A stretch of 64,000 nucleotides of DNA from Sphingopyxis sp. L1A2A (lineage in GTDB: Bacteria; Pseudomonadota; Alphaproteobacteria; Sphingomonadales; Sphingomonadaceae), in NCBI RefSeq assembly GCF_005502465.1, contig NZ_SCOT01000011.1, positions 1 to 64,000 of the forward strand, given 5' to 3'. The notes beneath the pieces are model-generated. The model did not search any database, was not told the origin of the DNA, and saw only the letters and a list, made by a program, of their open reading frames with translations. This document shows positions 15,564-59,937 of the stretch, piece after piece. The translations under genes were made by a program, and so were the position numbers. Within the stretch, counting starts at the first letter, position 1. Each line of letters starts with the position of its first letter.

Positions 15564-15580
15564 CGCCCCCTCCCCCCGGG

Positions 15581-15605
15581 ATACTGGCACTTACTATGCC
15601 AATAT
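15581..15605. promoter_or_regulatory. Palindrome upstream of the second sulfatase
   Basis: TGGCA (15585-15589) and TGCCA (15597-15601) are centred on 15593 with outer ATAC and ATAT. The half-site TGRCA with A/T flanks resembles the 12987-13017 palindrome, so the same TetR may bind both. It lies 18 bases upstream of the sulfatase start. Confidence 0.55.
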
Positions 15606-20423: not shown

Positions 20424-20443
20424 TTTCAGATACCTTTCTGCGC

Positions 20444-21229: not shown

Positions 21230-21286
21230 GGTAAAAACACTCTCCATATGCGGGCCATTTTCAAGTCCCGGGTGCCCGTGCCCGCG

Positions 21287-26092: not shown

Positions 26093-26243
26093 AACCATCT
26101 CCATTTCTCGTCCGCCTCTCTCTGATCGGGCGGCGGGAAAGTCTCTCTCCATATGGTGGTATCGGCCGAACGACCAGCGCGCCTATCCATCTTGCAACAT
26201 CGCGGGCGCCCTCGTGCCCGGCGCCTGTGGGCTGGAGAGTGGA

Positions 26244-27119: not shown

Positions 27120-27132
27120 GGCGGCCGACACC

Positions 27133-27933: not shown

Positions 27934-27936
27934 GCC

Positions 27937-29939: not shown

Positions 29940-29942
29940 CCC

Positions 29943-31849: not shown

Positions 31850-31855
31850 GCGGCC

Positions 31856-32869: not shown

Positions 32870-32881
32870 GGACAATCATCA

Positions 32882-34033: not shown

Positions 34034-34038
34034 GACCA

Positions 34039-34941: not shown

Positions 34942-34942
34942 G

Positions 34943-37197: not shown

Positions 37198-37208
37198 AGG
37201 AACGAAGC

Positions 37209-37991
37209 GTGGCACGACCCGCCCCCGACTATCCGACCCCCACCGGCCTGCTGAAGGGCAAGACCGTGCTGATCACCGCCGCCGCGGGCAGCGGCATCGG
37301 CGGCGCGGTCGCGCAGCGCGCGGCGGAGGAAGGCGCGGCGCTCTTCCTCTCTGACATGCACGAACGGCGGCTTGGCGAGACCGCGGACCGGATCGAAAGC
37401 CTCGGATTCGCGCGTCCGGGGACGCTCGTCTGCGACGTGACCAATGAGGAGCAGGTTCAGGCGCTCGTCGCCGCTGCGATCTCCGGCATGGGCCATATCG
37501 ATGTGCTCATCAACAATGCCGGTCTCGGCGGCGCAGCTTCGGTGGTCGAGATGACCGACGATCAATGGCACAAGGTGCTCGACGTCACGCTCACCAGCGT
37601 CTTCCGGATGACGCGCGCGATCCTGCCGCACATGTACGAGCGCCAGAAGGGCGCGATCGTCAACAACGCCTCGGTCCTCGGCTGGCGCGCGCAGAAGCTG
37701 CAGGCGCATTATGCCGCGGCGAAGGCGGGGGTGATGGCTTTCACACGATGCTCGGCGCTCGAAGCCGCCGAGCATGGCGTGCGGATCAATGCGGTCTCGC
37801 CCAGCCTTGCGATGCACGCCTCGCTGTCCAAGGTGACCCCGCCCGGGCTGCTTGAGACGCTGACCGAGAAGGAAGCCTTTGGCCGCTATGCCGAAACGTG
37901 GGAGGTCGCGAACGTGATGCTCTTCCTCGCCAGCAACCTGTCCTCCTACATGACCGGCGAAGTGCTCGCGGTGTCGAGCCAGCAGGCATGA
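37209..37991 (+). CDS. ipdF: IpdF-like SDR (HIP-CoA 5-oxo reductase)
   Basis: The 260-residue SDR has an N-terminal extension (ARPAPDYPTPTGLLKGKTVLITAAAGSGIGGAVAQRA), DMHERRLGETADRI, LINNAGLGGAASVVEMTDDQW, and NNASVLGWRAQKLQAHYAAAKAGVMAFTRCSALEAAEHGVRINAVSPS. These blocks coincide with mycobacterial IpdF as I recall it, including the unusual NNASVLGWRAQ around the catalytic Ser and ending with EVLAVSSQ. IpdF reduces the ring ketone of HIP-CoA to 5-OH-HIP-CoA. AAGGAACGAAGC precedes the GTG start at 37209. Its last codons overlap the MaoC gene start by four bases. Confidence 0.88.
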   Translation: MARPAPDYPTPTGLLKGKTVLITAAAGSGIGGAVAQRAAEEGAALFLSDMHERRLGETADRIESLGFARPGTLVCDVTNEEQVQALVAAAISGMGHIDVLINNAGLGGAASVVEMTDDQWHKVLDVTLTSVFRMTRAILPHMYERQKGAIVNNASVLGWRAQKLQAHYAAAKAGVMAFTRCSALEAAEHGVRINAVSPSLAMHASLSKVTPPGLLETLTEKEAFGRYAETWEVANVMLFLASNLSSYMTGEVLAVSSQQA

Positions 37992-38617: not shown

Positions 38618-40168
38618 TTACTCTCGCAGTAAAAATTTCTGCACCTTGCCCGCGGCGTTCATTGGCAGCGCGTCGAGGATTACCACCTGACGCGGGACTT
38701 TGTAGTTCGCCATATTCTCGCGGCACCAGGCGATGATCGCTTCGGGCGTCGCGCTCGCGTCGGGGCGCAGGACGACATAGGCCTTGGGCACTTCGCCCAG
38801 CCGTTCGTCAGGCACACCGATCACCGCCGACTGCATCACCACGGGGTTGGCCGCGAGCAACCCTTCGATTTCGGCCGGATAGGCGTTGAAGCCGCCGACG
38901 ATGAAGATGTCCTTGGCGCGGTCGGTGATCTTCACATTGCCGCGGGCGTCCTGCACCGCAATATCGCCAGTACGCAGCCAGCCTTCGCCGTCGATCGCCG
39001 CCGCGGTCGCCGCCGGGTCGTTGAAATAGCCACGCATTACATTGGGCCCGCGCACGAGCAATTCGCCGGCCTCGCCCGGCGCCACGACCTCTCCCGCCTC
39101 GTCGACAAGCTTGACCTCGATACCGGCGAGCGGGCGGCCCGCGGTGTTCGCGATCGTCGCGGCATCATCGCCGGCGCCGCACATCGTCACGACGCCGCAG
39201 GTTTCGGTGAGGCCATAGGCGGTGAGCACGACATTGATGCCGAGTTTGCCGCGCATCTCCTCGATCAGGGTGACCGGCACCGACGCGGCGCCGGTGATCG
39301 ACACGCGCAGCGAAGAAATGTCATGGTCGCAATAAGGGCCGGCGAGCAGGCTCTGATAGATGGTTGGTGGCCCCGGGAGGAGCGTTACCCTCTCGCGCTC
39401 GATCCGTTCGAGCACCCTGTCGGTCTGGAACACGGCGTGAGGAAGCACAGTCGCGCCACGCATCAGCGCGACCAGCCAGCCCGCCTTGTAGCCAAAGCTG
39501 TGGAAGAACGGGTTGATAATCAGGAAATTGTCGCCCGGCCCATAGGTCAGCGTTTCGCCATAAGCGAGATATAGGCGGACATTTTGCCCATGCGTGGTCA
39601 CGGCACCCTTCGGATTGCCCGTGGTGCCCGAGGTGAAGAGAATGTCGCAGACCTGATCCTCGCCCAGCGCATCCATCCGCGCACCGACCGCGGCGTCGGA
39701 AAGGGCGGCGCCGCGATCGAGGAAGGTCTGCCAGGCCATACCACCCTTGTCGCCATCGATCAGGACGATTTCGCGCAGATCGGGCAGATCCTCGTCGGCG
39801 ATCAAGTCCGGATAGGCGGTGCCAAGAAAATCCGAAACGGTGAGCAGCAGCTTGGCACCGCTGGTGCGCAGGATATAGCCTGCTTCGCGCCCCTTCAGCC
39901 GCGTGTTGAGCGGTACGATCGCCGCGCCCGCCGCCTGCGCGCCGACCGCAGCAATGATCCAGCCAATCGCGTTGGGCGCCCAGATTGCCACCCGGTCCCC
40001 GGCCACGACCCCTGCCGCGATAAAGCCCTTGGCGGCGGCCCGTACCAGCGGTTCGAGATCGCGATAAAAAACCTCGGTCCCGTCCTCGCCCCGGATCGCG
40101 ACGGCATCGCCATGCGCGCGTACCGCGGCGAAGATTTTATGGGGTATCGTGAACTTGGCTTCGGCCAC
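38618..40168 (-). CDS. fadD3: FadD3-like acyl-CoA synthetase (HIP-CoA ligase)
   Basis: The 516-residue ANL-family enzyme starts best at GTG 40168 (AEAKFTIPHKIFAAV) with AGGAG ten bases upstream. The ATP/AMP motif DILFTSGTTGNPKGAV is at about residues 175-190, followed by VLTAYGLTETCGVVTMCGAG, LRTGDIAVQDARGNVKITDRAKDIFIVGGFN and the C-terminal catalytic Lys in NAAGKVQKFLL. FadD3 (about 500 residues) activates HIP to HIP-CoA, the entry step of the pathway encoded by the facing operon. No other CoA ligase lies near. A general medium-chain ligase cannot be excluded by sequence alone. Confidence 0.82.
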   Translation of the reverse strand: MAEAKFTIPHKIFAAVRAHGDAVAIRGEDGTEVFYRDLEPLVRAAAKGFIAAGVVAGDRVAIWAPNAIGWIIAAVGAQAAGAAIVPLNTRLKGREAGYILRTSGAKLLLTVSDFLGTAYPDLIADEDLPDLREIVLIDGDKGGMAWQTFLDRGAALSDAAVGARMDALGEDQVCDILFTSGTTGNPKGAVTTHGQNVRLYLAYGETLTYGPGDNFLIINPFFHSFGYKAGWLVALMRGATVLPHAVFQTDRVLERIERERVTLLPGPPTIYQSLLAGPYCDHDISSLRVSITGAASVPVTLIEEMRGKLGINVVLTAYGLTETCGVVTMCGAGDDAATIANTAGRPLAGIEVKLVDEAGEVVAPGEAGELLVRGPNVMRGYFNDPAATAAAIDGEGWLRTGDIAVQDARGNVKITDRAKDIFIVGGFNAYPAEIEGLLAANPVVMQSAVIGVPDERLGEVPKAYVVLRPDASATPEAIIAWCRENMANYKVPRQVVILDALPMNAAGKVQKFLLRE

Positions 40169-40266
40169 GGCAGATCGTCTCCTGCGCCGGACATCCATGG
40201 AGAAGCGGTCCATTTGCCCGATCGATTTGCTCTTCGCTGCGTTACGCGCAGGCGTCGCGGCGACAA

Positions 40267-41684: not shown

Positions 41685-42674
41685 ATGGCCGCCAATCCCG
41701 ATGCCATCGCATTCCGGAGCGCGCTCGGCGCGTTCGCGACCGGGGTCACGATCGTCACGACGCGGAACGCCGCGGGCGAGGATTGCGGGCTGACCGCCAA
41801 CAGCTTCAACTCCGTCTCACTCGATCCGCCGATGGTGCTGTGGAGCCTCGCGCGCACGTCGCAAAGCATGGCGGCGTTTCAGGGCGCGTCGCATTTCGCG
41901 GTGCATATCCTCGCCGCCGATCAGGAGATGCTCTCGAACGGCTTCGCCAAGCGCGGCGCGGACAAGTTCGCCGGCGCCAAAATCGAGCGCGGCGAAGCCG
42001 ATGTGCCGCTGCTCACCGGCTGCACCGCGCGCTTCCAATGCCGCACCGCCTATCAATATGAAGGCGGCGATCACATCATCTTCGTCGGCGAAGTCATCGC
42101 CTTCGACCATGAGGACCGCGCGCCGCTGCTCTTCCATGGCGGCCGCTATGCATTGGCCGCACGCAAGGCCGCGATGCTCACCGCCTGCGAGCCCGGGGCG
42201 CAGCCCGCGGGCAGTTTTGGCGAAGATTTCCTCGGCTATCTCCTCGGCCGCGCGCATTTCCAGCTTTATGGACGGATGCAGGAAAGTTTGCGCGATCATC
42301 ATCTCGACGCCACCGATCACTTCATCCTGAGTGTGCTCGGCATCAACGATGGACGCACCGCCGCCGAGATCGACGGCCTGATCGCCTATACCGGCACGCA
42401 TATCACCCCCGATCGCATCGCATCGCTCGCGGCGCGCGGCATCGTCCGGAGCGATCCGACCGACCGGCTCTGGCTGACCGAGACCGGCCGACGCGCCCTC
42501 ATCGAACTCGCCGCCGCCGCCAAGGCGGCCGAGGAAGGCGCGCTGGGCGCCTTTGACGAAAATGAAGCCGCGCTGCTCAAGCATCTGCTCAAGCATGTCA
42601 TCCGCAGCACCGATCCCGGACTTCCCGATCCCTGGGCGGCGCAGGAGACGCCGCAAGCCACACGCCCAGAATGA
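41685..42674 (+). CDS. Flavin reductase with C-terminal MarR-like domain (C1-type)
   Basis: The 329-residue protein has two parts. Residues 1-165 are a flavin-reductase domain (FRSALGAFATGVTIVTTRN, CGLTANSFNSVSLDPPMVLWSLART, GDHIIFVGEVIAFDH). Residues 190-300 look like a MarR winged helix (LGRAHFQLYGRMQESLRDHHLDATDHFILSVLGINDGRTAAEIDGLIAYTGTHITPDRIASLAARGIV). This is the layout of the reductase (C1) of Acinetobacter 4-hydroxyphenylacetate hydroxylase, where the MarR-like part binds the aromatic effector and relieves autoinhibition. It would supply FADH2 or FMNH2 to a monooxygenase. No partner oxygenase is adjacent in the window. A strong GAGGAGCAAAAGG precedes the ATG. Confidence 0.85.
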   Translation: MAANPDAIAFRSALGAFATGVTIVTTRNAAGEDCGLTANSFNSVSLDPPMVLWSLARTSQSMAAFQGASHFAVHILAADQEMLSNGFAKRGADKFAGAKIERGEADVPLLTGCTARFQCRTAYQYEGGDHIIFVGEVIAFDHEDRAPLLFHGGRYALAARKAAMLTACEPGAQPAGSFGEDFLGYLLGRAHFQLYGRMQESLRDHHLDATDHFILSVLGINDGRTAAEIDGLIAYTGTHITPDRIASLAARGIVRSDPTDRLWLTETGRRALIELAAAAKAAEEGALGAFDENEAALLKHLLKHVIRSTDPGLPDPWAAQETPQATRPE

Positions 42675-42687
42675 AGGAACGCCGAGG

Positions 42688-43236
42688 ATGGAGAGAACAC
42701 AGACAATCGCGCGCCTTGGCCCGATCGCCCAGATCGCCTGGCTGACCGAGGATCTGGATTGCGCGATCGACCAATGGCGCCTCCTCGCGGGCGTCGGCCC
42801 CTGGACTGTCTATCGCAACGTCACGCTCGACGGCGTATTTCGCGGCGCGCCCGCAAGGATCAGGATCGATGTCGGGCTTGCGTACCAAGGCGAGACCCAG
42901 ATCGAGCTGATCGCCCCGCACGGCACCGGCCCCTCGCCCTATCATGACGCAGATGGCCGCGTGCGCGTCGGCATGCACCATGTCGCCTGGCTGGTGGACG
43001 ACGTCGCGGTGGCCGCTGAGGATGCCGCCGCCGCGGGCCTCGTTCCCGTCTTCAGTGCCGAGAGCGGCGGCGGCGCAACGCGCGTCGCCTACCTCGAGGC
43101 GCCCGACGAACCCGCGATCCTGCTCGAACTGATCGAGGCGACGCCGATGATCCGCGAAGGCTTTGCGGCCGGAACGGCCGCCGCCCGCGACTGGGACGGC
43201 AGCAATCCCGTTACCGTTTTCGACTTCGCAGCCTGA
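42688..43236 (+). CDS. VOC (glyoxalase/dioxygenase) superfamily protein
   Basis: The 182-residue protein carries a VOC fold: IAQIAWLTEDLDCAIDQWRLLAGVGPW, IRIDVGLAYQGETQIELIAPHGTGPSPYHD and MHHVAWLVDDVAVAAEDAAAAG, plus AILLELIEATP near the end. His and Glu positions of a metal site are plausible (HHVAW, LLELIE). It is too short for an HsaC-type extradiol dioxygenase, which is about 300 residues. It could be an epimerase, lyase or binding protein acting on a pathway intermediate. It is in tandem with flavin reductase, EthD-like and SRPBCC genes, with about 13-base gaps. Confidence 0.8.
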   Translation: MERTQTIARLGPIAQIAWLTEDLDCAIDQWRLLAGVGPWTVYRNVTLDGVFRGAPARIRIDVGLAYQGETQIELIAPHGTGPSPYHDADGRVRVGMHHVAWLVDDVAVAAEDAAAAGLVPVFSAESGGGATRVAYLEAPDEPAILLELIEATPMIREGFAAGTAAARDWDGSNPVTVFDFAA

Positions 43237-43245
43237 GGGAGCAGC

Positions 43246-43959
43246 ATGGAAAAGATCATTTACGCCCTGTGGAAAGACAGCGCGGAGGACGGCGCGCGCT
43301 TTACCGCGCGGCTGCTGGGTGAGATCGCGCCGCGGCTGGATGGACTGGCGCACGCGGTGCGCATCAATGTCCAGGATGACAGCGTCGCGGCCGGCACCTC
43401 ACCGCGCATGGCCTCGACCCTTCCGCAGATGGATGCCGTGGTCCAGCTCTGGCTGCCGAGCGCGAACGACCCCGAGCGTGCCGCCGTCGATGCGATCATC
43501 GCGGAGGCCGCGCCGCGCCATGCCGCGTGGCTGGCGAGTGAATCCACCATTATCGCGAACACGCTGGATCCGCCGACGCCCGGTGCGCGCACCGAGGGCT
43601 TTTCGCAGATCGTCTTTCTGGGCCTGCCGCCGCGGCTGAGCTGGGACGCCTGGCGTGACGCCTGGCAGCGCCAGCATTCGGCGGTCGCGGTCGATACGCA
43701 AAGCAACTTTGAATATGTCCAGAATCTGATCGTGCGGCCGCTGAGCTATGGCGCGCCCGCCTATGTCGCGATGGTGGAGGAATGTTTCCCCGCCGCCGCG
43801 CTGACCGATGAGGCGGTGTATTTCGACGCGGTGGGCGACACCGCGCGGCTGGCGGAGAACCAGCGGCTGATGATGGAAAGCTGCGCGCGCTTCATCGATT
43901 TCGACCGGATCGACTGCATCCCGACCAGCCAGTTCGATATTCGGCCGTTCGCCCGCTAA
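43246..43959 (+). CDS. EthD-domain (dimeric alpha-beta barrel) protein
   Basis: The 237-residue protein has two repeats of a ferredoxin-like fold, the second being EthD-like: FSQIVFLGLPPRLSWDAWRDAWQRQHSAVAVDTQSNFEYVQNLIVRPLSYGAPAYVAMVEECFPAAALTDEAVYFD. The first half (EKIIYALWKDSAEDGARFTARLLGEIAPRL) has the same character. EthD-type proteins assist degradation of ethers and other xenobiotics, but the chemistry is mostly unknown. It starts ten bases after the VOC gene and belongs to the same operon. Confidence 0.75.
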   Translation: MEKIIYALWKDSAEDGARFTARLLGEIAPRLDGLAHAVRINVQDDSVAAGTSPRMASTLPQMDAVVQLWLPSANDPERAAVDAIIAEAAPRHAAWLASESTIIANTLDPPTPGARTEGFSQIVFLGLPPRLSWDAWRDAWQRQHSAVAVDTQSNFEYVQNLIVRPLSYGAPAYVAMVEECFPAAALTDEAVYFDAVGDTARLAENQRLMMESCARFIDFDRIDCIPTSQFDIRPFAR

Positions 43960-43985: not shown

Positions 43986-44492
43986 GTGCGTAATAAGGAT
44001 GAATCGCTGACCTATCTCGATCCCGACGCCATCGTCCGCTCGGAGCGCGTCGAGATCGACGCCCCCGCCGCGGTGGTATGGGAGATATTGGTCGATCTTC
44101 CGCGCTATGGCGAATGGAACCCCTTCTGCATCGCCGCGGAATCGACGCTCGCGATGGGCGCGGCGGTCAACATGACGCTGAAAAGCTATATCGAACCCGA
44201 TACGGCCTTTCCCAATTGCGAATATGTCTGCGCATTCGAGCCCGAACGGCTGCTGTCATGGGAGCTTCCGCATGACGAAGCCTGGCCCTATCCGGCGCGT
44301 CGCGATCAGGTCATCGAGGCGCGGGGCGACAGTGCCTGCGCCTATCATTCGACCGATGCCTTTCTGGGGCCCAACGGCATTCATGTGATGCGTTTCGCCG
44401 GCCCCTGGGTGAAGCGCGCTTTCGATGACACCGCCCATGCGCTCAAGGCACGCGCCGAAGCGATGTATCAGGCCCGCAAAACCGCGGAATAA
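43986..44492 (+). CDS. SRPBCC-family (START/polyketide cyclase-like) protein
   Basis: The 168-residue protein, read from a GTG at 43986 with AAAGGA seven bases upstream, has the SRPBCC pattern RSERVEIDAPAAVVWEILVDLPRYGEWNPFCIAAESTLAMG, then LSWELPHDEAWPYPARRDQVIEA and the C-terminal long helix (WVKRAFDDTAHALKARAEAMYQAR). These folds enclose a hydrophobic ligand, such as an aromatic ring, lipid or steroid. It is the last gene of the 41.7-44.5 kb operon and ends before a convergent receptor gene. A binding or cyclase-like role is possible; no catalytic motif is visible. Confidence 0.82.
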   Translation: MRNKDESLTYLDPDAIVRSERVEIDAPAAVVWEILVDLPRYGEWNPFCIAAESTLAMGAAVNMTLKSYIEPDTAFPNCEYVCAFEPERLLSWELPHDEAWPYPARRDQVIEARGDSACAYHSTDAFLGPNGIHVMRFAGPWVKRAFDDTAHALKARAEAMYQARKTAE

Positions 44493-44577: not shown

Positions 44578-46944
44578 CTAGAATTTGAAGCCCAGCTCGA
44601 CGCCATAGCTGCGCGGATCGCCGTACATGACGCCGGCGAAACCAAGCGAACCGAAGTCGATCCCCGAGAGCGCATAATCTTCCTTGGTCAGATTCTTGCC
44701 CCACAGCGCGATCGATGCCCTGGCACCGCCGACCGCAATATCGGCGATCGAGAGCCGCGCGCTCAGCAGCCCGACCCCACCGTCGGAAATCTCCTCGTTG
44801 AACGGGTTGACGGGGTGCCAATAGACCTTGCTGCGATAGCTCCAGTCGGCGCGCGCGATGAGCTTGCCGAAATTGCCGAGCTCGGTTTCATATTGCGCGC
44901 CGACATTGGCGGTCGTCGCGGCCGAATATTGGAACTTGGCGAAGTCCGAAATATCGGTTGCGACACCGGTCATGGGGTCGACGAAGGTGAACCTTTTATA
45001 TTTGCGGTCGGTATAGCCGAACGACGCATCGACGGTGAGCCCATCGATGATCTGCGCCTGAAGCTCGGCTTCGATGCCGGTGTAGGTGGCCTTCGCGGCG
45101 TTGACCGTCGTGCTGGCCGCGCCGCCGGTGCCGGCGAGGAACTGCTGCACCTGCAGGTCGTCATAGATCGCGTGGAAAGCGGCGACGTTGAAGCGCACGC
45201 GGCGATCGAACAGCTCGCTCTTGAACCCGATTTCATAGGACACAAGATCCTCGGGGTTGAAGCCATTGTTATCCGCGGCCCGCGCGTTGAAACCGCCCGC
45301 CTTGTAACCCGTGCTCACCCGGGCATAGGTCATGATGTCGTCGCTCCAGTCATAGGAGACGTTGGCAAGCCAGTTCAGGCGATTGAACTTGCGCGTCAGG
45401 TCGCGCGGCGCGGTCGGTGCCGGCGCCGACTGGATAAGATGTTTCTTGTCCTCGGTATAGCGAATGCCGCCGGTGATGCTTAGCCGGCTGTCGAGCGCCG
45501 CCGGTTTCCAGGTAAGCTGGCTGAACGCCGCGACCGACCGCGAGATGTGGCGATAGGACAGCAAGGTATCGAGGTTGACGCCAAAGCTGTTCAGGTTGAC
45601 CCCCGGCGCGATCGGGATCGGCACCGGCGAAGGCAGGACCAGCGTGAAGCCCTGCGGATTCACCTCGGTCGCGCGCTCGCGGAAATAATAGGCGCCGAGG
45701 ACATAGTCGAACTCGTCGCCGATCGAGCCGATCAGGTTGAATTCTTGGCTGAACTGCTTTTGATGCCGCTCATTGCTGGTGTGGAACAGGTCGACCGGGC
45801 CGATGCCCTGCGGGATGAAGGCATTGGGCGGCGCCAGGATCGCGGGGCTGACGAGGAAACCGACGAGCCCGCCATTGCCGTCGAGATCCGAGCTTTCGCT
45901 CACATTGTCCCATTTGCGATAACCGGTGATCGAGCGCAGCGTCGCGTCGCCGATCTCGAGGTTGAGGGTCAGCGAATGCCCCTGCACCTTGTCATGGGCA
46001 TTGCCGTCGCGGTCGAGCCGGATCTGCGAAAGCCTGTCCGGCGAAAACTGCGGCGCCGCCCCGCCGAACGCGGGCGAGAAGCTCAGATATTGCAGGATGT
46101 CGGGGCGGATCGCCCGCAACTGAAAGGCATTGGCGCGGCCGTTCCGGTCGCTGGAGTCAAAGACATAGTCGGCGGTGAAGCCCGTGCCCTTGTCAAAGCG
46201 CACCGCGGCGCGAACGGCGTCGGTGTTGCGCGCGCCCGGATCGCGCTTGTCGGAGGGTTCGAGCAGATTGTCGACGGTGCCGTTGCGCTGGCTGTGGTAA
46301 TAGCCGAGCTTCAGCGCCAGACCGGTGTCGCCCAGTTCGCCGGTGTCGATCAGCGCCTTCACCATATATTCGTTGAAGCTGCCATAGCCGACTTGCAGGC
46401 GGCCGCCGAAATCCTTCGACGGCTTGGCCGAGATCAGGTTGACCGCACCGCCCGTCGTGTTGCGGCCATAGAGCGTGCCCTGCGGTCCGCGCAGGATTTC
46501 GACGCGCTCGAGGTCCATCATGTCAAACAGCGCGCCCGCCGAACGGCCGACGATGACGCCATCGACATAAAGCCCCACCGCGGGATCGGCGGTCAGGATC
46601 GGGTCGTTGTCGACGATGCCGCGGATCGAAATCGACGGGTTGGCCGTCGCCGACGGCGTTTCGGTGATGATAAGGTTGGGGGCCGCGCTGCCCAGCGCGG
46701 CGACGCTGGTGATGCCGCGCTGCTCGATCATTTCGGCGTTGATCGCACTAATCGCGAGCGGCGTGTCCTGCAGGCTTTCCGAACGTTTCTGCGCCGTGAC
46801 GATGATTTCGGTCAGTCCCTCGGACGCACTATCCTCGGCCTGCGGCGCCGGTTCGGCCTGCTGCGCTTGCGCGGCATTGGCGATCCAAGGCGCCATCAAT
46901 GCGATAGCGGCAAGCTGCGTGCGATGATGTGTGCGTAGCTTCAT
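44578..46944 (-). CDS. TonB-dependent receptor (catabolic-region candidate 2)
   Basis: The 788-residue protein has a signal peptide (HRTQLAAIALMAPWIANAAQAQ), an acidic linker and LTEIIVTAQKRSESLQDTPLAIS. The plug includes ISIRGIVDNDPILTADPAVGLYVDGVIVGRSAG and VEILRGPQGTLYGRNTTGGAVNLIS. The barrel ends YGVELGFKF. The start ATG at 46944 has GGAGGGACGGG upstream. Two copies of a 13-base repeat lie upstream. It is monocistronic, with its own terminator, and would import a hydrophobic substrate across the outer membrane; ligand unknown. Confidence 0.93.
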   Translation of the reverse strand: MKLRTHHRTQLAAIALMAPWIANAAQAQQAEPAPQAEDSASEGLTEIIVTAQKRSESLQDTPLAISAINAEMIEQRGITSVAALGSAAPNLIITETPSATANPSISIRGIVDNDPILTADPAVGLYVDGVIVGRSAGALFDMMDLERVEILRGPQGTLYGRNTTGGAVNLISAKPSKDFGGRLQVGYGSFNEYMVKALIDTGELGDTGLALKLGYYHSQRNGTVDNLLEPSDKRDPGARNTDAVRAAVRFDKGTGFTADYVFDSSDRNGRANAFQLRAIRPDILQYLSFSPAFGGAAPQFSPDRLSQIRLDRDGNAHDKVQGHSLTLNLEIGDATLRSITGYRKWDNVSESSDLDGNGGLVGFLVSPAILAPPNAFIPQGIGPVDLFHTSNERHQKQFSQEFNLIGSIGDEFDYVLGAYYFRERATEVNPQGFTLVLPSPVPIPIAPGVNLNSFGVNLDTLLSYRHISRSVAAFSQLTWKPAALDSRLSITGGIRYTEDKKHLIQSAPAPTAPRDLTRKFNRLNWLANVSYDWSDDIMTYARVSTGYKAGGFNARAADNNGFNPEDLVSYEIGFKSELFDRRVRFNVAAFHAIYDDLQVQQFLAGTGGAASTTVNAAKATYTGIEAELQAQIIDGLTVDASFGYTDRKYKRFTFVDPMTGVATDISDFAKFQYSAATTANVGAQYETELGNFGKLIARADWSYRSKVYWHPVNPFNEEISDGGVGLLSARLSIADIAVGGARASIALWGKNLTKEDYALSGIDFGSLGFAGVMYGDPRSYGVELGFKF

Positions 46945-46974: not shown

Positions 46975-47026
46975 GCGTATTATGTGCCGTTTTCTGGTCA
47001 AATATCACGCCTTGCGTATTATGTGC
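46975..47026. promoter_or_regulatory. Direct repeat GCGTATTATGTGC upstream of the receptor gene
   Basis: Identical 13-base copies at 46975-46987 and 47014-47026 are 39 bases apart, close to four helical turns, 31 and 70 bases upstream of the receptor ATG at 46944. This spacing suits two bound copies of one regulator. The sequence between and around them is AT-rich, as expected of a promoter. Confidence 0.6.
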
Positions 47027-47084: not shown

Positions 47085-47112
47085 CAAAAAAAGGGGCGGC
47101 AAAAGCCGCCCC
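47085..47112 (-). terminator. Intrinsic terminator of the P450-ferredoxin operon
   Basis: On the minus strand GGGGCGGC-TTTT-GCCGCCCC (47112-47093) is a perfect 8-bp GC stem followed by TTTTTTT. It begins 21 bases after the ferredoxin stop at 47133. Confidence 0.93.
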
Positions 47113-47132: not shown

Positions 47133-47468
47133 TTAAATCCCGGGCTGCTCCTTCGGGATATGAATCCTCAGCCCATCCAGTTCTTCGGTGATATGGATCT
47201 GGCAACTCAACCGGCTGCCCGGTGTGACGTCGATAAAGTCGGCCAGCGCATCGAGCATGACGGCCTCATCCTCACCTGGCGGCCCGACTCGCTCGACCCA
47301 GGCATCGTCGACATAGACATGGCAGGTGCCGCACTGGCGGACGCCGCCGCACAGGGCATCGATCCCGTCGATCAGATTGCCGATGGCAAGGTGCATGACC
47401 GCCATGCCCTCGAAGTTGGTGCAGGTTTTTTCGCTCCCGTCGGGCTGGACATAGGTCACGCGGGCCAT
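47133..47468 (-). CDS. [2Fe-2S] ferredoxin for the adjacent P450
   Basis: The 111-residue ferredoxin has cluster ligands Cys40, Cys46 and Cys49 (CGGVRQCGTC) and Cys89 (SRLSCQIH), the C-x5-C-x2-C...C pattern of adrenodoxin/putidaredoxin-type proteins. Around the third strand, PPGEDEAVMLDALADF is the acidic interaction helix. Its ATG overlaps the P450 stop by one base (TGATG), so it is made together with the P450 and is its electron donor. A ferredoxin reductase is not encoded nearby. Confidence 0.93.
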   Translation of the reverse strand: MARVTYVQPDGSEKTCTNFEGMAVMHLAIGNLIDGIDALCGGVRQCGTCHVYVDDAWVERVGPPGEDEAVMLDALADFIDVTPGSRLSCQIHITEELDGLRIHIPKEQPGI

Positions 47469-48886
47469 CAGTTTTTACCCTTCGCGTGCATCGGACAGCC
47501 CGCGGCACTGGCAAGCGCATCGAGATCGGCGGCCGAACGGGCGGCGATGGTTCGCCGGTTGTACCGCACCCGGCACGGCTGTTCGGGCCAATAGGTGCCC
47601 GCTCCGGCGATCGGGCGCGGCGTGTCGATCAATTCCATGTCGTAGCGCTGGAGCAGGATAGCGATCAGCGCCTTCATCTCCATCCGCGCGAAATTGACCC
47701 CGGCACAGCGGTGCATGCCGCCGCCAAAGCCGATCAGGCTGTTCGATTCGACCTTGCTGTCCGCGCGTTCGGTGTTGAACCGCTCGGGGTCATAGTCGTC
47801 GGGCCGGTCGAAAATTTCGCTCATCCGGTGGCTGACCGAGGGCGCGAGCAAGATCCAGTCGCCTTCGCGAACCTGATAGCCGTCGCGCTCGAAGTCGGCG
47901 GCCGCCTTGCGGATCATCGTGAAGGCCACCGGGTGCAGCCGCTCGGTCTCGCGGAGCGCGAGATCCATCTTCTGCATCGCGATCGCCTGTTCCCAGCTGA
48001 GATCGGCGCCCGAGGCCGAACCCAATATGGCGGCGATCTCGCCCCGCAGCACATCCTGATATTCGCGGTTCTGGAGGATGTCGATCATCGCCCAGCTGAC
48101 CTGCCCCGCCGTCGTTTCATGCCCCGCCCAGACGAGCAGCAGGATCATGTGGATGATCAGCTCGTCGGGGATCGGGCGGCCGTCGGGATAGGTCGACGCG
48201 ACCATGTCCTGGAAAAAGTCCGCCGGCTCGATCGGGTTTGCACGCCGCTGCCTGATCCAGTCGCCGAGGATCTGGTGGAGTTTTTTCTTGGCGGCCTGGC
48301 TGCGGCGCATTTTCTTCGTCGGGAGCCAGAGCGGCAGGACGAATTCCATCCCGCCCGAAAAGTCGCGGAACAGCTCGAAAAATTCATGGCCCAGCTTCTG
48401 CTTGAAATCGCGCCCCATGAAACTGTGCGCCGCGATATCCATGACCACCGGCCCAAGGGTCGAGATGAGATCGAATTCGCCGCAGTCGCCGAGGCGGTGA
48501 CAGAGCGCCATCGTCTCTTCGGCCATCACCGGCACATATTGCTTCATCGCCGACGCCTTGAAGCGCGGCATGATGACGGCGCGCTGGTTCAGATACTCCT
48601 CCATTTCGGCGAAGGAGTAGAAATTGGGCGAAAACATCTTGTGGAAGAAAGGCATCGATTCGCGGATCGACAGCAGTTTGTCGGTTTCCTGAAAGACGAA
48701 GCGATTGTTATCGGGTCCGAGCATCACGACCATGTTCCGTCCGCCCATGCGGAAGGAATAGATCGGGCCATGTTCCTGATAGCCCCGGCGCAGCAATCCG
48801 ACCGGATCCTTGAAGAAGTCCGTCAGGTGACCAAGGAACGGGACGCCGCCGCGCATCGCGGGCGGCTGCATGGCGATTGCCGACAT
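47468..48886 (-). CDS. Cytochrome P450, CYP51-like
   Basis: The 472-residue P450 has PPAMRGGVPFLGHLTDFFKDPVGLL at the start, an I-helix motif VWAGHETTAGQ near residue 256, ETERLHPV (ExxR, K-helix) and heme loop IGFGGGMHRCAGVNFAR with Cys near residue 393. The opening and the C-terminal RVRYNRRT are reminiscent of bacterial CYP51 (sterol 14-demethylase), but AGHETT replaces the CYP51-typical AGHHTS. It may therefore be a relative with another regiospecificity. A C-terminal extension of about 30 residues ends CPMHAKGKN. It would hydroxylate a steroid- or terpenoid-like ring. GGGAGAAATTCG precedes the ATG. Confidence 0.88.
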   Translation of the reverse strand: MSAIAMQPPAMRGGVPFLGHLTDFFKDPVGLLRRGYQEHGPIYSFRMGGRNMVVMLGPDNNRFVFQETDKLLSIRESMPFFHKMFSPNFYSFAEMEEYLNQRAVIMPRFKASAMKQYVPVMAEETMALCHRLGDCGEFDLISTLGPVVMDIAAHSFMGRDFKQKLGHEFFELFRDFSGGMEFVLPLWLPTKKMRRSQAAKKKLHQILGDWIRQRRANPIEPADFFQDMVASTYPDGRPIPDELIIHMILLLVWAGHETTAGQVSWAMIDILQNREYQDVLRGEIAAILGSASGADLSWEQAIAMQKMDLALRETERLHPVAFTMIRKAAADFERDGYQVREGDWILLAPSVSHRMSEIFDRPDDYDPERFNTERADSKVESNSLIGFGGGMHRCAGVNFARMEMKALIAILLQRYDMELIDTPRPIAGAGTYWPEQPCRVRYNRRTIAARSAADLDALASAAGCPMHAKGKN

Positions 48887-48985: not shown

Positions 48986-49789
48986 TTAATCCTTCAAGGA
49001 TCGTATTTCGCGACTTTCGGGACCGAACGCGCCCGCGGTGACGTCGCGCGCGACCATCGGCAACGGGATCGGGGTCGATGCGATCAGCAAGCCGATGTTG
49101 GTCTTCACCGCGGGCGGCAGCAAGGCATCGCGCGCGATCAGATCGCGGACTTCGCGAAACAGGCTGGCGAGCCGACGTTCGAGCAGGATGCGCGAGGCAT
49201 CGGACAGCTCGCCGATCTCGAACTCCCAGATCGAGCCCTTGGCCGAGAAATCATATTGGAGAAACTCCTCCTTCACCCGCCGGTCGAAGAAACGCCGCAT
49301 CGGCCCGCCGCGGCGCCAGCTGATGCTGCGCGCCGTCATGAGGCGCATGACGTTGCCGGGAAGCAGCTGGATCAATCCGATGCGTTCGAGCTTCATCAGC
49401 GCCGGGATCAGCAAGGTCTGGTCGATCGCATAGTCGCGCTCGATCCGTTCGACGGTCCAGCCGTCGGTCGCGAGGTGAAAGCAGAACAGCGCAAGCGGAT
49501 CGTCGACCAGCGCCTGTTCCTGCGCATCGGTCAGCGTCGTAGGCATCGCGGGCCGCATGTCGCCCGCCATCCGCGCGAGCGCGAGAAAATCGACGCCGAC
49601 GAGTTCACAAATCTCGTCGATCCGCGCGAGGGTGAAGCTGCGCTGCGCAAAGATGCGCCGCACGCTCGCATGGCTGATGCCGAGCGCGCCCGCGACATCG
49701 GCATAGGTCATCCCGCGCTCCTTCAGCACACGCTTCAGCGCCTCGACCAGATAGACGCTTTGCGTGAGCGGGGGCGCGGGTGCCGTCAT
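48986..49789 (-). CDS. Cro/C1-type HTH regulator within the P450 operon
   Basis: The 267-residue protein begins with an XRE helix-turn-helix (VEALKRVLKERGMTYADVAGALGISHASVRRIFAQRSFTLARIDEICELVGVD, residues 15-67). A domain of about 200 residues follows with predicted winged-helix features (DGWTVERIERDYAIDQTLLIPALMKLERIGLIQLLPGNVMRLM). The same architecture occurs in regulators that follow the DNA-binding domain with a ligand or dimer domain of unknown fold. It lies between the enzyme genes and the P450, on the same strand, so it may control this operon. Confidence 0.8.
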   Translation of the reverse strand: MTAPAPPLTQSVYLVEALKRVLKERGMTYADVAGALGISHASVRRIFAQRSFTLARIDEICELVGVDFLALARMAGDMRPAMPTTLTDAQEQALVDDPLALFCFHLATDGWTVERIERDYAIDQTLLIPALMKLERIGLIQLLPGNVMRLMTARSISWRRGGPMRRFFDRRVKEEFLQYDFSAKGSIWEFEIGELSDASRILLERRLASLFREVRDLIARDALLPPAVKTNIGLLIASTPIPLPMVARDVTAGAFGPESREIRSLKD

Positions 49790-49804: not shown

Positions 49805-50437
49805 CTAAAGGATCGATGCCTCAAGCGCGCAGAAACTGTGACAGAGCCGCGCATCGACGATCCGGTCGGGGCATTCGGGATCGAACCAGCGATCGATCCG
49901 CGCCCAATGATAGGGATGCATCATATAGGGCCCCATCAACCCGCTGGCATCGGCATATTCCTGTTCCCAGATATGCGTCCAGCGGCGCGCGCCGACCGCT
50001 TTGTCGGCGCGGCTCAGCTGCCAGTTGCGGATTGCCGGGATATAGTGCGGCATCATCCGCGTTTCTCCCTCGAAACGCGCGACGACAACCGGGTCGGCGC
50101 CTTCATCGACGCTGAGCAACAGCACGCGATAGACACCGTTCGCAAGCCCGGGATCAGACCGACCGCCCAATCCGCTTTGATAGGCAACGCCATCGACCGA
50201 AACGACCGCCGGGGTGGTAAGCAGCGGCGCCAGCGCCGCGTCGAAATCGGCGCGCTGCACCGCGTCGTCGAATGCAAAATGGGCGAGGAGGTCGCCGCCG
50301 AAATGGCTCCCCACCAGCGTCGGGGCGACCAGCTGGCGATAGGCGGCGTGCGCCGTAGCCAGCGCGTGTATCTCATCGGCCAACGCCGCAACACCCGCGG
50401 GATCGGCGACGGTGACAAGCCGGGTCAGCTTATACAT
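49805..50437 (-). CDS. Hypothetical protein, dimeric alpha-beta barrel type
   Basis: The 210-residue protein (start ATG 50437, MYKLTRLVTVADPAGVAALADEIHALA) is probably two ferredoxin-like repeats. The first has VGSHFGGDLLAHFAFDDAVQRADF, the second YRVLLLSVDEGADPVVVARFEGETRMMPHYIPAIRNWQLSRA and WTHIWEQEYADASGLMGPYMMHPYHWARIDRWFDPECPD. It resembles Dabb/EthD-type small proteins of degradation operons. Function unknown. It overlaps the preceding gene by eight bases, so it is translated from the same message. Confidence 0.7.
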   Translation of the reverse strand: MYKLTRLVTVADPAGVAALADEIHALATAHAAYRQLVAPTLVGSHFGGDLLAHFAFDDAVQRADFDAALAPLLTTPAVVSVDGVAYQSGLGGRSDPGLANGVYRVLLLSVDEGADPVVVARFEGETRMMPHYIPAIRNWQLSRADKAVGARRWTHIWEQEYADASGLMGPYMMHPYHWARIDRWFDPECPDRIVDARLCHSFCALEASIL

Positions 50438-50795
50438 CGCAGAGCCTTTCGATATCGGCAGGGGCCGAAGCGAAAAAGCGCCGCCGGCTGACCGCCCGCG
50501 GATCGACATCGGCCCACCAGGCCGCGACATCGGGGTCGTTGCCGCCGACGAAGCGCATCTGCCACCATGCCCCCGCATCGGCGAGCGACCAGCGAAAGAC
50601 GAGGGTGTTCGACTGATCGTCGAGCCACATCGGCGGGCTCACCAATATCTGTTCGAGCGTCATGCCGCGCGCCCGCGCGCCGGGCGCATAGCGCGCCAGA
50701 TAATCGCCGAGCAGCGCCTTGCCCTCGCCCGGCTTCGCGACAATCTCGTCGATCGCATGGACCATCGGCGCAGCCGCCGTGTCATCAGTCGTCAT
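50430..50795 (-). CDS. Small hypothetical protein (NIPSNAP/Dabb-like)
   Basis: The 121-residue protein (MVHAIDEIVAKPGEGKALLGDYLARYAPGARARGMTLEQILVSPPMW, then SNTLVFRWSLADAGAWWQMRF) has the strand-helix-strand pattern of a one-domain ferredoxin-like fold. It is rich in Trp around the proposed cavity. The start ATG at 50795 overlaps the end of the dehydrogenase gene by 11 bases. It has no recognisable catalytic motif. Together with the 210-residue neighbour it could form a heteromeric binding or isomerising protein. Confidence 0.65.
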   Translation of the reverse strand: MTTDDTAAAPMVHAIDEIVAKPGEGKALLGDYLARYAPGARARGMTLEQILVSPPMWLDDQSNTLVFRWSLADAGAWWQMRFVGGNDPDVAAWWADVDPRAVSRRRFFASAPADIERLCDV

Positions 50796-51774
50796 GGGGC
50801 GCTACCTCCAGGATGATCTTGCCGCGGACATGCTGTCCTTCGATGCGGCGATGCGCCTCGGCTGCTTCGCCGAGCGGCAGGATCTCGATCGCGGGCGGCT
50901 TCACCCCGCCCGCGGCGCATAAGGCCGCCAGTTCCGTCAGATGCTGCGGCAGGCGCATGACGGCGGTCATGTTGGACAGGATGCTCACGCCGTTCGCCGC
51001 GGCACGCGCGACCTCATCGGCGCTCGCCTGCGACACCAGCGTTGCAATCTCGACATAGCGGCCACCCGGCGCGACGATATCGACCGCGGATGGCAGCAGG
51101 CTGTCGAGTCCGACCGCATCGAGAACAAGATCGACGCCGCCGGGCGCCCATTGGCGTACCGCCTCTGCGACATCGCCAGCGCGATAGTCGATCGCGTGGT
51201 CGGCGCCGAAACCCCTGACATAGGCCATATTGTCCGGGCCGCAGGTCGCCGCGACGCGCGCACCAAGCGCGTGCGCGATCTGGATGCAGATGCTGCCGAC
51301 GCCGCCCGCGCCGCCGTTGATGAGCACGGTCTGCCCTGCCGACAATCCGCCGACGTCGACAAGCCCGCCATAGGCCGTCGTCCCTGCGACCGGCAGCGCG
51401 GCAGCCTGTGCAAAACGCCAGCCCTGCGGCAGCGCGGCGACAAAAGCCGCGTCGGCGATGCAATATTCGGCATAGGAGCCATCGCGTCCTTGCCCCTGTT
51501 TGGACATGCCGAAGACACGGTCGCCGGGACCAAACGCGTCGACGCCCTCGCCGACCGCCTCGACAATGCCGGCGAAGTCGAAACCGAGCACGAACGGAAA
51601 GTGATAGTCGATGTAGGCTGACAGCTTGCCGACGCGCGTTTTCCAGTCGGCGGGGTTGACCCCGGCGCAGATGACCCGGACCAGCACCTCACCCGCGCCG
51701 GCTTCGGGTGTGGGCAGATCGCCCCAGACAAGCTGGTCGGGACCGCCGAACCCGTTGATCACCATCGCTCGCAT
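50785..51774 (-). CDS. MDR-type zinc-independent alcohol dehydrogenase / quinone oxidoreductase
   Basis: The 329-residue protein starts at ATG 51774 (MRAMVINGFGGPDQLVWGDLP) with AAGGGGAATG upstream. It has the GroES-like N-terminal part (VICAGVNPADWKTRVG, FPFVLGFDFAGIVEAVGEGV, GDRVFGM), the Rossmann motif INGGAGGVGSICIQIAHALGARVAAT and FGADHAIDYRAGDV. The structural-zinc Cys cluster and the catalytic Cys/His zinc ligands of alcohol dehydrogenases are absent, placing it with quinone oxidoreductase/enoyl reductase types that use NADPH. It follows a receptor gene and could reduce a double bond of the imported compound. Confidence 0.85.
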   Translation of the reverse strand: MRAMVINGFGGPDQLVWGDLPTPEAGAGEVLVRVICAGVNPADWKTRVGKLSAYIDYHFPFVLGFDFAGIVEAVGEGVDAFGPGDRVFGMSKQGQGRDGSYAEYCIADAAFVAALPQGWRFAQAAALPVAGTTAYGGLVDVGGLSAGQTVLINGGAGGVGSICIQIAHALGARVAATCGPDNMAYVRGFGADHAIDYRAGDVAEAVRQWAPGGVDLVLDAVGLDSLLPSAVDIVAPGGRYVEIATLVSQASADEVARAAANGVSILSNMTAVMRLPQHLTELAALCAAGGVKPPAIEILPLGEAAEAHRRIEGQHVRGKIILEVAPHDD

Positions 51775-51838: not shown

Positions 51839-54097
51839 TCAGCGCCGGAAGCTGAGTGTTGCCCAGTAGCGGCGTGGTTCATTAAAATAGCCCTCCACAA
51901 AGCCGAAGCTGGTCGAGGCGTCATAGCCCGCGGTCAGCACGCGCTTGTCGGTCAGATTGTCGACCGCGAGGCGAAGCGACAGCCCCCTGGCGGGCAGCGT
52001 GAATTCGGCGCTGGCGTTCAGGATCGCATGATCGGGCGCGCGCATCAGCGGCGAATTTTCGACATCGATCCAGGTGAGGCTGCGGTAGGCGGCGTCGAGG
52101 CGGAAGCTCGCATCGACGCTGTCCGACAGCGCGACCGAATAGACGATGCTGCCGCTCGCGGTGAGGTCGGGCGCCTGCTTCGGATTGCGGAAGCTGACAT
52201 CGGTCGGAACGCCGCCGATCACCGAGGTATAGCGCAGATATTTCGCATCGAGATAGCCGAACGAACCGCTCAGTCGCAGCTCGCGCGAGACGCGAACGTC
52301 ACCCTCCAGCTCGATCCCCTGAATCCGCGACTTGCCGGCATTGTCGGTGCGCACCACGATCAGACCGGTGTTCGGGCTGACCGTCGAGATGAGCAGTTGC
52401 TGATCCTTGTAATCGTTGCGGAAGGCCGAGAGGTTCAGCGTGACAAGCCCGCCGAGCGTCGTCTTGAGCCCCGCCTCATAGGCGGTCAGATATTCGGGAT
52501 CATAGGACCCGATTTCCTCGACCGAGGTCGGCCGTCCGTTGAAGCCGCCGCTGCGGAACCCCCGCGACCAGGAGACATAGCCGAGAATATCGGGGGTGAA
52601 TTTATACGAGAGCGAAGCGCGCGGCGTGAACGCCTTCCAGTCCTCGCTCAGCCGGTACGAGGGCATGCCCGAAAGCAGCGGCTGCTGGCTGTAGATCCGC
52701 ATCGCGGCCTGATCCCAGACCTTCTTTTCCCAAGTGTAGCGCGCGCCGAGTTCGAGCGTCAGCGCATCGGTGACGTCGAAGGTGGCGTTGCCGAACAGCG
52801 CATAATTGGTCGTCTTCTGCCGATTGGCGAAGTCGATGTTGAAATCGAGCGCGGTGGCGAGCGCGGGGTCGAAGCCCGCCGCGATCAGGCGCGGATAAAG
52901 TCCGTCGGCAACGTAGAGCGTGGTGTCGTCGCGCGACTTTTCGCGGAAATAATAGGCGCCGAGCAACAGCGAGCCGCGATCGAACAGGCTGGTCGCATAT
53001 TGCAGTTCCTGCGAGATCTGGCGCGCACTCTCGTCGTGGATGTCGCCCGCATAATTGACCGCCGCCGAGGCATCGCCATCGCGCCCGAAGATCGCATGGA
53101 CCCAGCGATAGGCGCTGATCGACTTCAACGTGCCGCCGCCCAGATCGGCCGAAAGCGTCAGCGTCGCATTGGCGGCATCGGTCTCGTCGCGGTTGAGGAA
53201 ATCACTGGTGTCGGTGCGGTTGATGCTGCCGGGCGCGGTGCAGCACGGCGCAATGAAGGCCGATTGCAGTCCCGAGAAGAAAGTCGGGGTAAAGGATAGC
53301 ATGCTGTGCGGCGTGCTGTTCTGGCGGCGGCGCAGCCCGTCGACGGTCAGCACCGCATCGATCGGCGACGCACCATAATGCAGCGTCAGCCGGCCCGCCT
53401 GAACATTGCGATTGCCCAGATTCTTGCCCGAGGGGACTTTCTGCCAGCCCTCGCCCCATTCGCCCAGCGCGGCGACCCCGATCGCGAGATTGTCCGAAAG
53501 CCCTGCCTCGACATTGGCGCGTAGCCGGAGATCGTTGAACGAGCCATAGCGGATGTCGCCTTCGATCCGGTTACCCCTCGGCACACGCGAGACGACGCTG
53601 ATCGCGCCGCCGATCGTATTCTTGCCGAACAGCGACCCCTGCGGCCCGCGCAGCACTTCGATCCGGTCGATGCCCAGAAGCTCGGTGGTCGCGCCAAAGC
53701 TGCGCGCGACATAGACGCCGTCGATATAGAGCGCGACCGCGGGATCGGAGGTGATGATGAAGTCATTCTCGCCGACGCCGCGGATGAACGCCGAAACGCC
53801 GCCGCTGTTGCCGCCCTGCCCCGGCGTGAACTGAAGGTTGGGCGCGACCTGGCCGACGTCGGTGACGCCGTCAAAGCCGCGCGAGTCAAGCTGCGCGCCG
53901 CCGATCGCGGTGATCGCGATGGGTACGTCCTGCAGCTTTTCCTCGCGCCGGCGCGCGGTGACGACGATCTCGGTGGAGTCGTCTTCGTTCGCCGCGTCCT
54001 CGGCGGCGGGCGCCTGCTCCTGCGCAAAAAGCGGCTGCGCAGTGGCAAGCGCCACCAGCGCAACCGAAGCACGCGCGAAATACCTGTAATTTTTCAT
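51839..54097 (-). CDS. TonB-dependent receptor heading the P450 operon
   Basis: The 752-residue protein has a signal peptide (YRYFARASVALVALATAQPLFAQ), STEIVVTARRREEKLQDVPIAITA and a plug with FIRGVGENDFIITSDPAVALYIDGVYVARSFG and IEVLRGPQGSLFGKNTIGGAISVVS. The barrel ends RRYWATLSFRR. It contains one CC pair (FIAPCCTAP) in a surface-loop region, unusual for these receptors. The genes for the dehydrogenase, two small proteins, HTH regulator, P450 and ferredoxin follow on the same strand with short gaps, so it probably imports their substrate. Confidence 0.93.
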   Translation of the reverse strand: MKNYRYFARASVALVALATAQPLFAQEQAPAAEDAANEDDSTEIVVTARRREEKLQDVPIAITAIGGAQLDSRGFDGVTDVGQVAPNLQFTPGQGGNSGGVSAFIRGVGENDFIITSDPAVALYIDGVYVARSFGATTELLGIDRIEVLRGPQGSLFGKNTIGGAISVVSRVPRGNRIEGDIRYGSFNDLRLRANVEAGLSDNLAIGVAALGEWGEGWQKVPSGKNLGNRNVQAGRLTLHYGASPIDAVLTVDGLRRRQNSTPHSMLSFTPTFFSGLQSAFIAPCCTAPGSINRTDTSDFLNRDETDAANATLTLSADLGGGTLKSISAYRWVHAIFGRDGDASAAVNYAGDIHDESARQISQELQYATSLFDRGSLLLGAYYFREKSRDDTTLYVADGLYPRLIAAGFDPALATALDFNIDFANRQKTTNYALFGNATFDVTDALTLELGARYTWEKKVWDQAAMRIYSQQPLLSGMPSYRLSEDWKAFTPRASLSYKFTPDILGYVSWSRGFRSGGFNGRPTSVEEIGSYDPEYLTAYEAGLKTTLGGLVTLNLSAFRNDYKDQQLLISTVSPNTGLIVVRTDNAGKSRIQGIELEGDVRVSRELRLSGSFGYLDAKYLRYTSVIGGVPTDVSFRNPKQAPDLTASGSIVYSVALSDSVDASFRLDAAYRSLTWIDVENSPLMRAPDHAILNASAEFTLPARGLSLRLAVDNLTDKRVLTAGYDASTSFGFVEGYFNEPRRYWATLSFRR

Positions 54098-55152: not shown

Positions 55153-55599
55153 TCAGTCGCGCACGACGCGGATGCGGCTGAGCCGGGTCCTGGCGATCAG
55201 CCAGCGCCCGCGCGCCTTGCGATAGCAATCATGATAATGTCCGAAACCGTGGCGCGAGCGACCGGCAAGATCGCTTCCCTCGCCCGCCCAGAAATGGTCG
55301 TCCATCGCCCAGATGCCCTCGGCATCGCGTGCGCCGGTGAAGCGGATTTCAAAGCTGTGGACATGATGCACCGTCGTGGCATTTTCGAGCGCGGCGGCAA
55401 CCCCGGCGACAAAGGCCTCGGCACCGGTGGTCAGCAGTTTTTCATCGGCCTCACCCGGCATTTCGCGAAAGTCGCCGACCATGTCGTCGGTGAGCAGGCT
55501 GCGCAGCAGCGCCCAGTCCTTGGTGTCGAGCGCGCGCACGTAGCGCGCCTTGAGCAGCCGGATCTCCTCGATCGCAGCAAGATTGACAGCTTCTGTCAC
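55153..55599 (-). CDS. SnoaL-like (NTF2-fold) protein
   Basis: The 148-residue protein starts at GTG 55599, three bases after the sulfotransferase stop, with GAGAGG upstream. Its pattern IEEIRLLKARYVRALDTKDWALLRSLLTDDMVGDFRE..., then TTVHHVHSFEIRFTGARDAEGIWAMDDHFW and GHYHDCYRKARGRWLIARTRLSRIRV is typical of SnoaL_4/NTF2-like proteins. The HH pair and the C-terminal RTRLSR are common family features. Members include ring isomerases (ketosteroid isomerase fold), dehydratases and hydrolases. No ketosteroid-isomerase Asp/Tyr set can be claimed here. Confidence 0.85.
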   Translation of the reverse strand: MTEAVNLAAIEEIRLLKARYVRALDTKDWALLRSLLTDDMVGDFREMPGEADEKLLTTGAEAFVAGVAAALENATTVHHVHSFEIRFTGARDAEGIWAMDDHFWAGEGSDLAGRSRHGFGHYHDCYRKARGRWLIARTRLSRIRVVRD

Positions 55600-56775: not shown

Positions 56776-56810
56776 AGCCCATCCTCTCTGCATCATGATA
56801 GTAATTTTAT

Positions 56811-59798: not shown

Positions 59799-59870
59799 CT
59801 TCACCCTCCTTGATCCACAAAATATTGCATAATGTCGGCAATAGTGAGATATGTTATCGAAATGCGATGA

Positions 59871-59887
59871 TTTCACAAGTTGTGAAA
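59871..59887. promoter_or_regulatory. Perfect 17-base palindrome TTTCACAAGTTGTGAAA
   Basis: The dyad is perfect around a central G (59879) and lies between the divergent SDR (start 59798) and Rieske oxygenase (start 59938) genes. It is 51 bases from the oxygenase ATG. An operator controlling both genes is the likely role; the regulator family is not obvious. Confidence 0.85.
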
Positions 59888-59937
59888 ACGCAAAACGACA
59901 ATGCCTGATGCAAACCGGGCATGATGGGAGATTTTCA

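Follow-up and report, generated by a model that had tools for sequence, protein, structure and literature searches.

The window, a stretch of 64,000 nucleotides from Sphingopyxis sp. L1A2A, encodes a CYP204A-type cytochrome P450 followed by a [2Fe-2S] ferredoxin (Table 1). We consider it likely that the pair acts as a class I P450-ferredoxin steroid hydroxylase and opens an optional way into the 9,10-seco pathway. Five features are directly seen: the pairing of the genes, the placement of the P450 in its family, the steroid-pathway surroundings, the co-occurrence with steroid genes across genomes and the gain or loss of the pair as a unit.

Table 1. Features of the window around the P450-ferredoxin pair
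Feature	Position	Strand	Remarks
Steroid C/D-ring (HIP) operon	25767..37991	+	IpdA/IpdB-like CoA transferase, EchA-like hydratases, IpdC-like NMO, four acyl-CoA dehydrogenases, thiolase, two SDRs
FadD3-family acyl-CoA ligase, HIP-CoA ligase candidate	38618..40180	-	NF005801, 673.8 bits (cut-off 657)
Flavin reductase-domain protein	41685..42674	+	in divergent operon
VOC/glyoxalase-like protein	42682..43236	+	
EthD-domain protein	43246..43959	+	48% identity to a C. tardaugens gene, by inference EGO55_13495, an Hsh3-family homologue
SRPBCC/polyketide cyclase-like protein	43986..44492	+	
TonB-dependent receptor 1 (TBDR1)	44578..46944	-	downstream of terminator
Candidate operator	46975..47026		two exact GCGTATTATGTGC copies plus an inverted repeat (TTGCGTA...TACGCAA) in front of TBDR1; retained in part by 6 relatives
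Intrinsic terminator after ferredoxin	47093..47112	-	8 G-C pairs, 4-nt loop, U7
[2Fe-2S] ferredoxin, putidaredoxin/adrenodoxin type	47133..47468	-	111 aa; ORF, Pfam, structure matches
CYP204A-type cytochrome P450	47468..48886	-	472 aa; ORF, Pfam, motifs: I-helix AGHETT, haem loop FGGGMHRCAG
Cro/C1-type HTH protein, probable regulator	48986..49789	-	267 aa; 99 bp upstream of P450
Dabb-domain protein	49805..50455	-	Pfam; 42% identical (tblastn) to Dabb gene of C. tardaugens L067
EthD2, small EthD/Dabb-like protein	50430..50795	-	Pfam match absent; 46% to gene beside Dabb in C. tardaugens L067
MDR oxidoreductase, PIG3/quinone-reductase type	50785..51774	-	50% to C. tardaugens cassette member
TonB-dependent receptor 2 (TBDR2)	51839..54097	-	upstream of P450, same strand
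SnoaL_4 (NTF2-like) protein	55153..55599	-	Pfam
KshA-like 3-ketosteroid 9alpha-hydroxylase oxygenase	59851..61017	+	4qdc match, E 1.3e-53

Pfam assigns a p450 domain to the first ORF of the pair (E 1.2e-61) and a Fer2 domain to the second (E 6.3e-07). The ferredoxin matches 3hui best in the PDB (E 1.7e-26), with putidaredoxin at 2.6e-20. The P450 stop and the ferredoxin start overlap as TGATG, the link by which the first-pass annotation had tied the two genes, and the related loci bear it out. One scan of genome contigs yielded 38 named CYP204A loci, mostly from Sphingopyxis, Sphingomonas, Sphingorhabdus, Novosphingobium and Croceicoccus. The ferredoxin gene directly follows the P450 gene in 38/38 of them, so the pairing is not due to chance, and the two genes overlap as TGATG or TAATG in 17. 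The loci nearest to the window are from Sphingopyxis (P450 identity 97%). Its dedicated [2Fe-2S] ferredoxin points to a class I system for the P450. No NAD(P)H ferredoxin reductase is found among the scanned cluster genes; two Reductase_C (PF14759) genes, candidates for this role, occur elsewhere in the same genome (C6 and C44). A Sphingorhabdus MAG carries a second P450 gene (29% identity) at about 1.2 kb of its locus (L019), about 2 kb upstream of its CYP204A gene.

The P450 hits 9wat_A best in the PDB (722 bits), and CYP51s come next at about 200-242 bits. The entry 9WAT is titled CYP204A3 in the Foldseek and VIA-align listings, and all 437 printed residues of 9wat_A are identical to the P450 of Novosphingobium sp. 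28-62-57. Our P450 shares 304 of 437 aligned residues with it (69.6%). P450 nomenclature assigns proteins to one subfamily once their identity to a named member exceeds about 55%, and the P450 therefore files as CYP204A, by sequence a member of this little-studied family. The family assignment that the first-pass annotation had proposed as a check does not lead to a family with known unrelated substrates, given that the literature search gave no function for CYP204A. The Novosphingobium protein has the same fold and an adjacent ferredoxin gene, but that locus belongs to another genus and its upstream genes are of the SDR/EthD type, in contrast to the Dabb/EthD2/MDR/HTH type in the window. The fold model used for structure comparison has a modest mean pLDDT of 69.8; after 9wat, VIA-align lists P450s throughout, lying within a few Z of one another, and the absence of other families there is no evidence. 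A full-text literature search on CYP204 found no published function and nothing on substrates, products or expression of any CYP204A, and literature searches for a paper on PDB 9WAT and for CYP1232, a guessed family name, gave nothing. In the available part of PMC8197338, the one paper found to contain the term, CYP204 appears only as a family count in a table.

The sequence similarity invites a CYP51 reading, and the first-pass annotation had described a CYP51-like P450 that might demethylate its substrate. The resemblance is real but moderate, with CYP51s as the next-best matches in both sequence and structure, and does not extend to CYP51 identity. CYP51 membership is set at about 40% identity or an accepted CYP51 exception; the P450 is 29.7% identical to the CYP51 of Methylococcus capsulatus. 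CYP51s carry a GxHTS-type I-helix motif with a His before the conserved Thr, which reads AGHHTS in M. capsulatus. The P450 has AGHETT, as previously noted, and its Glu257-Thr258 is invariant in 28 aligned rows (the window and 27 of the 38 relatives). The BC-loop signature of CYP51 is YxxF/LxxPxFGxxVxF/YD; the corresponding stretches are FFHKMFSPNFYSFAEM in the window and YRIMTPIFGRGVVFDA in M. capsulatus, and the PxFG..V.(F/Y)D segment is absent from the former. A search for squalene epoxidase (PF08491) in the L1A2A genome gave no match (0/1; control search positive in 2/14), and the surroundings are catabolic. A bacterial CYP51-type sterol 14alpha-demethylase is accordingly a barely credible identity for this protein, and demethylation by such an enzyme is likewise not supported. 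The CYP51-ferredoxin fusion of M. capsulatus (PDB 6mcw, 7jj1, 7snm), also rejected as an identity, resembles the pair in joining a P450 of CYP51-like fold to a ferredoxin at about 30% identity. It is one polypeptide, whereas here there are two overlapping genes that lack the CYP51 motifs and lie in a catabolic rather than a sterol-synthesis setting.

By its predicted gene content, the window is a steroid-catabolism island in which the pair sits between a C/D-ring operon and KshA. Beside the FadD3-family ligase (Table 1), three enzymes of the C/D-ring set exceed their family cut-offs: a PRK07938-type hydratase (321.8 bits, cut-off 260), a PRK07801 thiolase (648.6, cut-off 591) and a PRK07791 SDR (455.7, cut-off 373). 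The IpdB-like CoA-transferase subunit matches 6con (E 2e-48), listed as CoA-transferase subunit beta, which we take to be an IpdB structure. The next 20 kb beyond the window encode KstD-type genes and others that we presume to be HsaA, HsaD, HsaE and HsaG, assigned by Pfam class and synteny only. KshA, KstD, Hsa, FadD3 and IpdAB thus occur together, as in 9,10-seco loci, with KstD and Hsa on that same basis. Of the sterol- or triterpenoid-like substrate proposed earlier, the steroid-like part is backed by these surroundings, a decisive context that the first-pass annotation had missed and far stronger evidence than it had to go on. A sulfatase-family gene (13701-15590, -) about 10 kb from the C/D-ring operon encodes a possible steroid sulfatase. 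Outside the steroid region lies a Fic/DOC-family protein (1391-2527, -), and a single 994-aa ORF (7153-10137, -) combines a glycoside hydrolase family 65 enzyme with a HAD hydrolase.

The association with steroid genes extends to other genomes. Among 298 Sphingomonadaceae genomes, the P450 occurs in 8, KshA in 38 and IpdB in 41, and all 8 P450 genomes have both KshA and IpdB. With the L1A2A genome left out, Fisher p is 3e-7 for the P450 with KshA and 5e-7 with IpdB, values inflated by the close phylogenetic clustering of the genomes; counted by genus, p is about 1e-4. In 7/8 genomes, the distance from the P450 to KshA or IpdB is under 18 kb, in several gene arrangements. The eighth is a fragmented assembly whose P450 match contains one internal TGA. 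The P450 is missing from 30 of the 38 KshA-bearing genomes, which makes it an accessory component. This distribution bears on the possibility that the substrate is a diterpene, a triterpenoid or a xenobiotic and the steroid setting coincidental or regulatory. Promiscuity is common among P450s of this class, and in Sphingomonas lycopersici and other isolates the P450 occurs in other gene settings. The constant company of KshA and IpdB, one of them close by in 7/8 genomes and in varied arrangements, argues against a non-steroid substrate, which we regard as improbable.

The loss or acquisition of the pair can be seen by comparing two sequenced steroid degraders, Croceicoccus estronivorus and Caenibius tardaugens, the latter recognized by one exact primer match among the 298 genomes. 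C. estronivorus has the block SDR-EthD-AraC-SDR-P450-ferredoxin-AP-endonuclease-like-amidohydrolase-Coq4-like. C. tardaugens has the same block, 72-92% identical, minus the P450-ferredoxin pair, with about 0.3 kb left in its place; no P450 match is found in this genome at E<=1e-60. The pair is therefore gained or lost as a unit. According to PMC12239570 and PMC12882949 (in part), C. tardaugens grows on estrogens, testosterone, progesterone, pregnenolone and bile salts; in that organism, use of these steroids therefore does not require the pair. Its SD region for testosterone/HIP degradation contains the same genes in the same order as the island, at 44-87% identity. The C/D-ring operon and Hsa genes together are mostly 60-87% identical; the C/D-ring genes alone are mostly 60-83%, with ACAD2 (44%) and FadD3 (50%) as exceptions. 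The difference is the CYP204A pair, which C. tardaugens lacks and which the window carries between the C/D-ring operon and KshA.

C. tardaugens has another P450 in a sphingomonad steroid locus, the estrone 4-hydroxylase EdcA (PMC7793797), and the pair of C. estronivorus is about 9 kb from an EdcA homologue. It is nonetheless very unlikely that our P450 performs the EdcA function in Sphingopyxis sp. L1A2A. It is 27% identical over 230 residues to the inferred EdcA, to which the C. estronivorus homologue is 69% identical. As C. estronivorus carries both that homologue and the pair, the pair is not simply EdcA. The available text of PMC7793797 reports EdcA without an adjacent ferredoxin.

Upstream of the P450 and on the same strand are TBDR2, MDR, EthD2, Dabb and HTH, in this order and with short gaps or overlaps, and it is plausible that all five belong to one operon with the P450. 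The first-pass annotation had placed a receptor, a reductase-like MDR and an HTH regulator in this operon. That arrangement is plausible for TBDR2, MDR and HTH; the other receptor, TBDR1, is probably a separate unit because the intrinsic terminator lies between it and the pair. The terminator folds with z -4.3 and is kept in 7/7 aligned sequences (the window and 6 of the 38 relatives). The MDR is of the PIG3/quinone-oxidoreductase type and not a ferredoxin reductase. In the candidate operator, the exact GCGTATTATGTGC pair is found only in the window (its own locus being L002). Promoter-like sites give no clear signal (5 found, 2.2 expected). Beside the P450 operon lie a sulfotransferase-like gene (55603-56796, -) and the SnoaL_4 gene; SnoaL/NTF2 folds include Hsh2-type 7alpha-dehydratases, according to the part of PMC12175502 available.

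Neighboring genes offer hints at the substrate. The Dabb, EthD2 and MDR proteins are 42, 46 and 50% identical to a C. tardaugens cassette (L067) whose position and spacing suggest that it is EGO55_04225-04235. These genes are reported to be induced by progesterone over testosterone, with fold changes of 9, 15 and 11 (PMC12239570, in part). The Dabb cassette also occurs in other genomes that lack the P450, so this induction need not concern the P450. A tyrosine phosphatase-SDR pair (19293-21247, -) has counterparts in C. tardaugens (L068), with identities of 53 and 72%, that, judging by their spacing, correspond to EGO55_14520/14525, genes likewise described as progesterone-induced in the available part of PMC12239570. 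A Baeyer-Villiger-type monooxygenase (BVMO) gene (C2:79657-81144; L047:15654-17144, -) resembles the progesterone BVMO of C. tardaugens. Its identity to that gene is 56%, but a second C. tardaugens gene is equally similar, and just 5 of the 8 genomes with the P450 carry it; for these reasons it is not used as evidence.

An alternative is that the P450 leaves the rings alone and oxidizes the side chain of a sterol or bile-acid-type compound, as a functional analogue of CYP125/CYP142. Such a role would fit the steroid-pathway setting, the sterol P450s as nearest non-CYP204 structures and the TonB receptors on both sides of the P450. The side-chain gene compared was SclA, whose C. tardaugens candidate is assigned by position and AMP-binding motif only. 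It has no close homologue in the L1A2A genome (best 34% identity), whereas the C/D-ring genes are mostly 60-83% identical. This weakens a bile-acid SclA-type side-chain pathway, and we think side-chain oxidation rather unlikely. Taken together, the cassette, the phosphatase-SDR pair and the SclA result weakly favor a C19-C21 steroid over a bile-acid-like one, and the substrate favored for the proposed hydroxylase is a C19/C21 nucleus that lacks a bile-acid side chain.

The EthD-domain protein of the divergent operon may add a second activity. Its relative in C. tardaugens fits EGO55_13495, the Hsh3 homologue of that organism (PMC12175502, PMC12882949, in part), and Hsh3 is described as a 7beta-hydroxysteroid dehydratase with an EthD domain (PMC12175502, in part); the activity of the window protein is putative. 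Hsh3-like genes are present in 26 of the 38 fetched CYP204A loci, several of which end early at contig ends, and are also found without the P450. These observations motivate the idea of a hydroxylation-dehydration module, which we offer as a long shot. The P450 would hydroxylate an unsubstituted B-ring position (e.g. C7) and the dehydratase would remove water, leaving a ring double bond. Plain C19/C21 steroids would thereby reach the 9,10-seco pathway in its delta-4,6 variant. In the available descriptions, that variant serves 7-hydroxylated bile salts.

We infer hydroxylation, a steroid as substrate and the direction of electron flow from the genes, and propose the following mechanism. The P450 and its own ferredoxin would be translated together. 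A ferredoxin reductase encoded elsewhere would take electrons from NAD(P)H and hand them to the ferredoxin, which would deliver them to the haem of the P450, where the Glu257-Thr258 pair may help to cleave O2. The P450 would then place one hydroxyl on a steroid. Neighboring SDRs and dehydratase-type proteins could oxidize or dehydrate the hydroxylated product, which would enter the co-located 9,10-seco pathway (KstD, KshA, Hsa, FadD3, IpdAB).

P450-ferredoxin pairs are themselves of a known kind; what is new here is the steroid-pathway context for a CYP204A P450. It gives a family with a solved structure, and with no function found in the literature, a concrete and testable role in steroid breakdown, and it corrects the CYP51 reading. 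C. estronivorus and C. tardaugens, which differ by exactly this pair in one collinear block, constitute a natural presence/absence experiment. A steroid hydroxylase with its own ferredoxin, if confirmed as such, would be useful for biotransformation and for understanding the removal of hormones in waste water. For the cell, the pair would be an optional unit for using more kinds of steroid or using them faster, and most likely gives access to a steroid that its close relatives either process in another way or leave untouched.
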